Below, piece by piece: positions 5,470 through 45,054 of a stretch of 64,000 nt of DNA (the first letter of the stretch is position 1; every line of letters begins with the position of its first letter). Source of the stretch: Spirochaetales bacterium (lineage in GTDB: Bacteria; Spirochaetota; Spirochaetia; SZUA-6; JAFGRV01); contig JAFGKU010000056.1 of the NCBI GenBank assembly GCA_016928415.1, forward strand, positions 1 through 64,000, written 5' to 3'. Both the position numbers and the translations under genes were made by a program. Below the pieces are notes generated by a model. The model had not been told where the DNA came from. It worked only from the letters and a program-made list of their open reading frames with translations, and made no database searches.

Positions 5470-5919
5470 ATGAAAGTCAAGACCAAAGCGTATGGCGTGA
5501 TTGATGTCGATGAAAGGCAGAAACTGTTTTTCCCTTTCGGGCTTTTCGGCTTTGAAAATTTAAAAAACTTTGTTCTGTTCGATGCAACTCAAAAGCCATT
5601 TTTCTGGCTGCAGTCCCTTGATGTAACAGAGATAGCTTTTGTACTCATCAATCCCCGTGTTTTCAGGCAGGATTATACGCTTGAGGTGACTGAAGAAGAA
5701 CTTGCAGAAATCGGCATAGAATCCCCGGAGGAAATACTCGATTTTGCCATAGTGACTATTCCCGAAAATACGATGAAAATGACGGCAAACCTGCAGGGAC
5801 CTGTCGTTATAAACAAGCGAACCAAGATGGGCAGGCAATGTATTTCGTCAAACCCGGCATGGAAGATACGTCACCCCATTCTTGAAGAACTGGCGGGCAT
5901 GGAGAAAAAAACATGCTGA
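5470..5919 (+). CDS. fliW: Flagellar assembly factor FliW
   Basis: 149 aa, [22 protein letters not shown]...; overlaps csrA. Confidence 0.92.
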
Positions 5920-6152
5920 TTTTAACCCGCAAAGTGGATGAAGCCATCATGATCGGTGATAAAATCGAGGTCTCCGTTGTCGATATTAAAGGCGACCAGG
6001 TTAAACTCGGCATCAAGGCACCCAGGGAAGTGAAGGTTTACAGGCAGGAAGTGTACCTTGCCATCCAGAAGGAAAATATTGAAGCATCGCAGATTGCCCC
6101 GGACAAGCTGCCTGACCTGAATGATGTGTTCGGCAAAAAGGAAAAAGAATAG
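5913..6152 (+). CDS. csrA: Carbon storage/translation regulator CsrA
   Basis: [48 protein letters not shown]. Confidence 0.97.
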
Positions 6153-42694: not shown

Positions 42695-43552
42695 TTAACC
42701 GAGTAATTGAAGTGTGGATTGAGATTTCGTATTGGCCTGGGCCAGCATCGCCGTTCCTGCCTGTAACAAAATCTGGTTTTTCACAAATTCAACCATTTCA
42801 GATGCCATGTTCGTGTCCCTGATAACGGACTCCGAAGCCTGCATGTTTTCAGCCGCGATATCCACACCTTTAACCGCCATTTCAAAGCGGTTCTGGTATG
42901 CGCCAAGGTCTGCCCTTTGTTTGGAAATTTTTTGCAGAGCACCGTCGACATCACCGAGGAGCCTGTTGGCTTCATCAGGAGACGCGATTGTTTTCGGTGT
43001 ATTCTGGTCGGTTTCCATATTCAGTGCGGCGGCGGTCATGGTCCCTATGTAGACTCTTTCCCTCTGGTCCATATTGGCTCCAACCTGGAACCACATGGAA
43101 GCGGTAGCTGTTCCGCCCTCAACGTTCCTGGCAAAGGCGCCTTTTAACAGGTCCATGCCATTGAACTGGGCGTGGGAGGCGACACGGTTGAGTTCGTCCA
43201 CGAGCTGGGACACTTCAACCTGTATCTGCATCCTGTCCTCATCGGAATAAACGCCGTTTATGCTCTGGACCGCCAGTTCCCTGATCCTGTGAAGTACGTC
43301 CTGCGATTCCTGCAGGTATCCTTCCGTTGTCTGAATCAAAGAAATACCATTAGAAATATTTTTGCTTGCCTGGTTGAGACCCCTGATCTGAGCCCTCAAT
43401 TTTTCGGAAACAGCCAATCCCGATGCATCATCACCGGCCCGGTTAATTCTCATACCGGATGACAGTTTCTCCATATTTTTGGTAAGATCAATGTCTCTTG
43501 TTTTTAAAACCCTGTCCGCATACATTGCGCTCAAGTTATGATTTATTATCAC
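42695..43552 (-). CDS. flaB: Flagellin FlaB, paralogue 1
   Basis: [64 protein letters not shown] start. Confidence 0.95.
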
Positions 43553-43559
43553 TATAGCC

Positions 43560-43594
43560 CTCCTTGATAATTAATTAAGGCATCCATGCCTTAA
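43560..43594 (-). promoter_or_regulatory. Candidate dual CsrA-binding region in the flaB paralogue 1 leader
   Basis: Minus strand TTAAGGC-ATGGAT-GCCTTAA hairpin (ANGGAN hexaloop) 22 nt upstream of the AAGGAGG SD GGA. Confidence 0.6.
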
Positions 43595-43808: not shown

Positions 43809-44669
43809 TTATCTCAAAAGCTGCAATACTGATTGTGTCTTCGTGTTGGCCTGGGCCAACATAGCCGTAGACGACTGGATCAGGATGTTGTTCCTGACAT
43901 GATCAACCATTGTTGCCGCCATGTCAGTATCCCTGATCCTGGATTCCGAGGCCTGGAGATTTTCCGCCCCGTTCATAACGCCTTGTACAAGCAATTCCAG
44001 CCTGTTCTGGTAAGCACCGAGATCGGCCCGCTGTTTGTTTATCCTTTTCAAAGCATCATCAATCTGGCCGATACTTTGGTTGGCGCCGGCAGCCGTTCCA
44101 TAGTTGATGAATTCCTTGCTGGCAACGTCTCTTATGCCCAAGGCTTCACTTGTCATTGTACCGATGAAAACCTGTTTTCTCTGGTCCATGTTGGCACCGA
44201 TATGGAACCACATTGATCCGGTAACGGTGTTTTCATTGGTTTGTCTGGCAAACCGCCCCGTAAGCAGGTTCATGGTGTTGAATTGCGCATGGGAGGCGAC
44301 CCTGTCGAGTTCATCCACAAGCTGGGATACTTCGACCTGGATCTGCATCCTGTCTTCATCCGAATAGATACCGTTCGATGCCTGGATGGCCAGTTCCCTT
44401 AATCTCTGAAGAACATCACTTGATTCCTGAAGGTATCCTTCTGTTGTCTGAATCAGGGATATGCCGTTTTCGGCATTCTTGGCCGCCTGGTTCAAACCCC
44501 TGATCTGGGCCCGCATCTTTTCAGACACCGCGAGTCCGGAAGCATCGTCGCCTGCCCGGTTGATTCTCATACCCGAGGCAAGTTTTTCCATCGATTTGTC
44601 CAGCGAGAGATTGTTTACTTTAAGTTGACGGCTGGCAAAAAGCGCGCTTAAATTGTGATTGATTATCAT
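43809..44669 (-). CDS. flaB: Flagellin FlaB, paralogue 2
   Basis: [62 protein letters not shown]. Confidence 0.95.
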
Positions 44670-44671
44670 GG

Positions 44672-44711
44672 TGTTTCCTCCTTGAAACATCTAAAGAGCA
44701 TCCTTGCTCTT
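44672..44711 (-). promoter_or_regulatory. Candidate dual CsrA-binding hairpins in the flaB paralogue 2 leader
   Basis: Minus strand AAGAGC-AAGGAT-GCTCTT-taga-TGTTTC-AAGGAG-GAAACA-cc-ATG; two ANGGAN hexaloops, the second includes the SD. Confidence 0.7.
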
Positions 44712-45054
44712 CGTTATAAATTCCCGACCATACGGTCAGGTTAGATCAAAAATGGTTGGTATTATATATGAGACTGGTTATCACCTCCCTGTATCCAATG
44801 ATCCCCATATCCTCCAGAAATACAGACATAAGCCGATAATTGAGGATAAGGAGGGAAAGTCTACTGCTCCATCCGTGGATTCGAAACTATCCCTAATCTA
44901 CAAATCGGATCATTATATTTCAAACATAATACAAAATTCACGATTAGTCAAATTTTTTTTATTTTTTTAGCGGGTTTTATATGGAGAATTTATCAATTTT
45001 TATGGTAATATGCCTGGACAAAGTACACGATAAAACACAAACCGGAGTAAATTC

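Follow-up and report, generated by a model that had tools for sequence, protein, structure and literature searches.

The closest described counterpart of the leader considered here is that of Campylobacter jejuni flaA, where the same arrangement of two stem-loops has been established by footprinting, gel shifts and mutants (Dugar et al. 2016, PMC4894983). The C. jejuni flaA 5'UTR and the spirochaete leaders are alike in presenting two ANGGA stem-loops (SL1 and SL2 in C. jejuni), the second lying over the ribosome-binding site, in showing covariation (within the genus in that case), and in the presence of csrA and fliW, which are lost together with flagella (PMC4894983). They differ in that C. 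jejuni belongs to another phylum and its leader was shown by experiment, whereas in spirochaetes several paralogous leaders are found per genome and across most of the phylum. Bacillus subtilis hag is likewise similar by published description, with two CsrA sites, one of which lies over the Shine-Dalgarno (SD) sequence, and with FliW acting as antagonist (PMC7652899).

In spirochaetes, Borrelia burgdorferi flaB is described as being repressed by CsrA, with multiple CsrA sites near the SD (Sze et al. 2011; PMC4066749). The Borrelia-like genomes considered here similarly carry GACGAATGGATTTGTC plus an SD stem-loop, although with approximately twice the spacing and with shorter, AT-rich stems, and are missed by the covariance model employed below (R1). 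Leptospira CsrA binds the SD hairpin of flaB3, containing a GGA hexaloop, in vitro, with binding being lost upon replacement of GGA by AAA; unlike the present case, those passages of the report that address the flaB3 and flaB4 SD hairpins describe tests of the SD hairpin alone and report no upstream hairpin (PMC8668096). For Treponema denticola, CsrA sites near the SD of flaB1 and flaB2 are mentioned in the discussion of a report that also presents a flgN-flgK-flgL-fliW-csrA cluster, a statement made there without structure or comparison across the phylum (PMC9481697).

A literature search found no paper describing a dual hairpin across spirochaetes. Given that the architecture is already known from Campylobacter and the link between CsrA and flagellin from Borrelia and Leptospira, and that neither an Rfam family nor a spirochaete-wide description was found, the leader is taken to be a new case, spread phylum-wide, of an already known type of CsrA-flagellin control. 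Scattered CsrA reports on single genes would in this manner give way to a phylum-wide, structure-defined candidate operator, absent from Rfam, that can be sought with a covariance model.

The leader of the first tandem flaB gene

The window, i.e., the entire 64,000-nucleotide stretch of Spirochaetales DNA analyzed here, contains a tandem pair of flaB genes on the minus strand. The sequence-only reading of this DNA had proposed two hairpins upstream of the first gene of the pair, and the minus strand from 44711 to 44672 indeed spells both, base for base. The features concerned are as follows:

44694..44711, minus strand: hairpin 1 (H1), AAGAGC-AAGGAT-GCTCTT, 5' of the ribosome-binding site; a predicted high-affinity CsrA site
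44711-44706, 44705-44700 and 44699-44694, minus strand: AAGAGC, AAGGAT and GCTCTT of H1, respectively, from the sequence
44672..44689, minus strand: hairpin 2 (H2), TGTTTC-AAGGAG-GAAACA, including the SD; a predicted second CsrA site
44689-44684, 44683-44678 and 44677-44672, minus strand: TGTTTC, AAGGAG and GAAACA of H2, respectively, from the sequence
43809..44669, minus strand: flaB, 286 amino acids, MIINHNLSA..., first of the tandem pair, from the ORF and the starts of its homologues

On the minus strand, TAGA links H1 to H2, and CC separates H2 from the ATG at 44669. As had been claimed, H2 encloses the SD, and the two GGA triplets lie 22 nt apart from start to start (19 nt between them). 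The helices of H1 and H2 were both predicted by RNAfold, which assigned the 47-nt core of the leader an energy of -14.1 kcal/mol (z -3.4), with none of 200 shuffled sequences being equally stable. The description of the two loops as ANGGAN hexaloops on 6-bp stems agrees with the sequence and with the RNAfold helices, but energy rules also pair the A and U at the ends of the H1 loop, leaving an AGGA tetraloop. In 70 H1 sequences from relatives, the loop-end position is T in 48, C in 10, A in 9 and G in 3, in each case facing an invariant A. Because the loop-end base varies opposite that invariant A, the hexaloop is the conserved reading of H1.

The ORF finder had placed the start of flaB at an ATG at 44690. 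As the homologues begin with MIINHN directly 3' of the SD hairpin, this start was ruled out and the longer ORF is not considered real.

For the focal gene, the reading of H1 or H2 as an intrinsic terminator found no support, with no terminator-like site (a G+C-rich hairpin followed by a T run) being seen at either hairpin. No convincing promoter was found near the focal H1, which is assumed to be part of the flaB mRNA. An exact GCCGATAA at 44832-44839 on the plus strand, considered as a sigma-28 promoter for the focal flaB, was discarded, as it lies on the strand opposite to that gene and such matches occur at chance frequency. In relatives, the leaders of lone flaB genes often present a sigma-28-like -10 box shortly 5' of H1. 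This box (TAAA-N15-CCGA) ends some 15-21 nt ahead of the H1 GGA (e.g., L059, L060, L043 and L082), a placement that would make H1 the extreme 5' end of the mRNA.

CsrA, FliW and the proposed control of flaB translation

The genes encoding the presumed regulators are found in the same window, at the position given for them in the sequence-only reading (5470-6152), where the two ORFs overlap by 7 bp:

5470..5919, plus strand: fliW, CsrA antagonist, matching the FliW chain of PDB 5dmb (E 7e-21)
5913..6152, plus strand: csrA, 79 amino acids, most similar in the PDB to 5dmb_D, the CsrA chain of the FliW-CsrA complex

No second csrA was found in the 5.1 Mb assembly. The 79-residue CsrA retains L4 and R44, which belong to its RNA-binding face, and bears a C-terminal extension. 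The ribosome site of csrA lies within GGGC-ATGGAG at the end of fliW (5895-5919, plus strand), such that autoregulation of csrA via this sequence is possible.

It is very likely that flaB translation is blocked by a CsrA dimer reaching from H1 across to the SD hairpin, and that FliW lifts this block. According to this proposal, the flaB leader would serve as a two-site CsrA operator in RNA, with one subunit of the dimer taking the ANGGA loop of H1 and the dimer then spanning to the ANGGA loop of H2, thereby clamping the SD so that ribosomes could not start flaB. FliW, when not occupied by unexported flagellin, would inhibit CsrA, and flagellin would be made only during its export, a homeostatic loop as in B. 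subtilis and C. jejuni. We infer binding by CsrA, repression and the feedback of flagellin via FliW from C. jejuni flaA, Leptospira flaB and B. subtilis hag; bridging, too, is inferred. One published observation counts against repression, namely that overexpression of csrA in Leptospira interrogans is reported to have raised, rather than lowered, flaB mRNA (PMC8668096).

Occurrence of the dual hairpin in relatives

Matches to flaB were found in 49 of 61 related genomes, from which 130 leaders of genes with an intact N-terminus, representing about 47 genomes, were taken. H1 was scored when an ANGGA loop on a stem of at least 4 bp (two of them G-C) was present approximately 25 to 80 nt upstream, and H2 when the SD lay in a hairpin of at least 3 bp. 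By these definitions, H1 was present in 108 leaders, H2 in 100 and both in 87. Dinucleotide shuffles of the same 130 leaders yielded, on average, 1.0 H1, 2.2 H2 and no leader with both, while 516 displaced upstream windows contained no H1, five H2 and no instance of both. The dual-hairpin feature is thus far above chance. In a second set of 79 leaders from named genomes, overlapping the first in part, H1 was seen in 68, H2 in 59 and both in 55.

The distance between the two GGA triplets in relatives has a median of 24 nt and falls within 18-32 nt in 98 of 108 leaders. Bridging by Escherichia coli CsrA occurs over a range of 10-63 nt, with an optimum above 18 nt (PMC7652899). Lying within that range and beside the median of the relatives, the 22-nt spacing of the focal leader suits bridging by a CsrA dimer, as had been suggested from the sequence.

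Stem covariation and loop conservation

Comparison of the stems among relatives, proposed earlier as a check on the two hairpins, revealed that both covary; when given 50 full leaders, RNAalifold, unaided, recovered exactly the H1 and H2 helices. The H1 alignment, comprising 70 distinct H1 sequences from first-of-tandem, lone and unclassified flaB genes and restricted to leaders with a stem, has 81.6% of its cells paired. Its covariation score was 0.652, as compared to 0.247 upon shuffling, with none of 500 shuffles reaching that score and slid controls giving at most 0.234; two-sided changes were seen in seven of the eight pairs. For H2, 62 sequences were aligned without pairing serving as a criterion for inclusion, giving a score of 0.359 versus 0.171 upon shuffling (0/500) and two-sided changes in five of six pairs.

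When a single sequence per family and paralogue was retained, H1 still scored 0.736 versus 0.273 upon shuffling (shuffle maximum 0.365), and the pooled H2 score, 0.356 versus 0.260, was still significant. Within single paralogue groups, H2 covariation was modest (group A: 0.214 versus 0.153, sd 0.033; group C: 0.258 versus 0.148, sd 0.034). The pooled H2 covariation is partly a signal between paralogues.

In both hairpins, the loop A, the GGA and the closing C-G pair show little or no variation, while all four bases (A, G, C and T) occur at the N of A-N-GGA. The GGA of H1 is not explained by pairing with rRNA. A conserved A-N-GGA and C-G closing pair combined with a free N is what CsrA, and not the ribosome, requires.

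Covariance-model searches and alternative explanations

A covariance model, R1, was built from the flaB leader. When the 5.1 Mb assembly was searched, the top four matches were the four flaB leaders (E 6e-10, 4e-8, 5e-4 and 0.036), the next match having an E value of 0.49. Across the 61 genomes, 90 matches were obtained at E<=1e-3, of which 86 lie at listed flaB starts; the other four correspond to two truncated flaB copies, one flaB leader relic and one unrelated gene. Beyond flaB copies and the relic, the search for further dual-motif targets in these genomes returned few weak matches at unrelated genes. Phylum-wide, R1 found a match in 151 of 198 genomes, and the 39 matches inspected in genomes not used for training all lie in front of a flagellin start. 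These distributions suggest that the role of CsrA in flagellin control is ancestral in Spirochaetota and that the dual-site regulon is almost only flagellin. Rfam 15 returned no family for the window at gathering or loose thresholds, and none for the loci of 18 relatives.

The relic (L106; G001:C121:16603-16650, minus strand) is a seemingly intact dual-hairpin leader 5' of the second tandem flaB that is followed by a short non-flagellin frame, and is apparently the remnant of a deleted or decayed flaB.

An R1 match was present in 43 of the 49 genomes containing csrA and in none of the 12 genomes lacking it (Fisher p 1e-8). As those same 12 genomes also lack fliW and flaB, the association is with the system as a whole rather than with CsrA alone. 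The six csrA-containing genomes with no R1 match comprise two incomplete assemblies, in which an intact flaB was not found, and four with diverged leaders. In the Borrelia-like genomes and in a Treponema-like group, both missed by R1, one flaB or more is still preceded by an upstream ANGGA hairpin and an SD hairpin, the stems or the spacing being different.

The lone flaB of five Treponema-like genomes (G127, G137, G166, G200 and G243; leaders L252-L256) has neither ANGGA hairpin and presents a plain AAGGAGA-type SD, while the first tandem flaB in these genomes retains both hairpins. This points to an apparent paralogue-specific loss of CsrA control.

Both hairpins are short, stable and situated by the SD, and H2 alone can limit access to the latter, such that H2 could simply be a ribosome-site hairpin, acting as a thermometer or as an intrinsic throttle on translation, and H1 a hairpin that stabilizes the 5' end, with no part for CsrA. 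This is considered improbable, since it leaves unexplained the invariant A-N-GGA with its free N in H1, where it has no ribosomal role, the narrow spacing of the GGA triplets, and the absence of the motif from genomes without csrA, even if these also lack flagellins. That the leaders chiefly titrate CsrA, as an RNA sponge, rather than being chiefly repressed targets, would be in keeping with the three to four sites per genome carried by abundant flagellar mRNAs and with the C. jejuni flaA leader, which acts in part in this way, titrating CsrA from flaG (PMC4894983). Yet, H2 covers the SD, so that binding should repress in cis, and the R1 searches, which address dual hairpins only, found no second class of target for the dual motif, making a chiefly titrating function very improbable. 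Finally, recognition of the loops by a small RNA, or by an RNA-binding protein other than CsrA, is hardly credible, given that the loop and closing pair agree with the central part of the consensus obtained for CsrA by SELEX, RUACARGGAUGU (PMC7652899), and that the co-occurring regulator is csrA-fliW. Control of flagellin by CsrA and FliW, as proposed above, is probably phylum-wide in spirochaetes and aimed almost only at flagellin.

A CsrB-like sponge was also sought; the sole close pair of SELEX-like sites among the matches listed (contig C73) falls inside a coding gene and was rejected.

Other flaB paralogues of the source genome

A FlaB search revealed the flaB complement of the 5.1 Mb assembly to consist of one tandem pair and two single genes. 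An upstream ANGGA hairpin similar to the focal H1 also precedes two more of these genes, the first being the second member of the tandem pair:

43575..43594, minus strand: H1 of the second tandem flaB, TTAAGGC-ATGGAT-GCCTTAA, with its GGA 22 nt from the SD GGA (covariance model E 5e-4)
42695..43552, minus strand: second tandem flaB, GTG start, from the ORF

The SD hairpin of this gene comprises only about 2 bp. The other is the lone flaB on contig C37, where H1 reads AAACGGAC-AAGGAA-GTCCGTTT and the SD site is 25 nt away. The flaB on contig C67 has a strong SD hairpin and an upstream region without a GGA loop. In all five genomes of the source's family, an 855-bp flaB paralogue keeps the SD hairpin and lacks the standard upstream ANGGA hairpin (leaders L003, 5' of flaB at G000:C67:23133 on the minus strand, L011, L013, L019 and L023); some of these leaders place the GGA in a bigger hairpin loop.

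It is conceivable, if rather doubtful, that CsrA in Spirochaetota is in essence devoted to regulating flagellin and that the strength of H1, H2 and their spacing across the three to four flaB paralogues per genome sets both the order and the ratio of flagellins in a composite filament. Were this so, strongly clamped paralogues (the focal flaB and the lone flaB on C37) would answer FliW release first, and weakly clamped ones (the second tandem flaB and the flaB on C67) would obey other rules. Differing clamp strength among paralogues is offered as a testable idea and not as a result; with it, the manner by which spirochaetes fix the flagellin ratio in one filament becomes directly testable.

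An element between the tandem flaB genes

Between the two tandem genes, at 43682-43646 on the minus strand, lies a further element that reads GGGAACGGA-GAAAGAAG-AAAGCGCGGAAG-CTTCTTTC. In about 30 relatives, GGGAACGG followed by a hairpin with a GCGCG loop is found at the same place, some 60-130 nt 5' of the second flaB. No Rfam family was found for the element in the loci of 18 relatives, and a loose pattern for it occurred at background level in GC-rich genomes. The stems of the GCGCG hairpin differ in a compensating manner, with a mean longest stem of 6.97 as compared to 5.37 (sd 0.20) when arms of different species were swapped; the signal of a possible outer stem was weaker (6.47 versus 5.95, sd 0.20). 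The element may be an undescribed structured RNA that affects either the second flaB or the processing of both genes.
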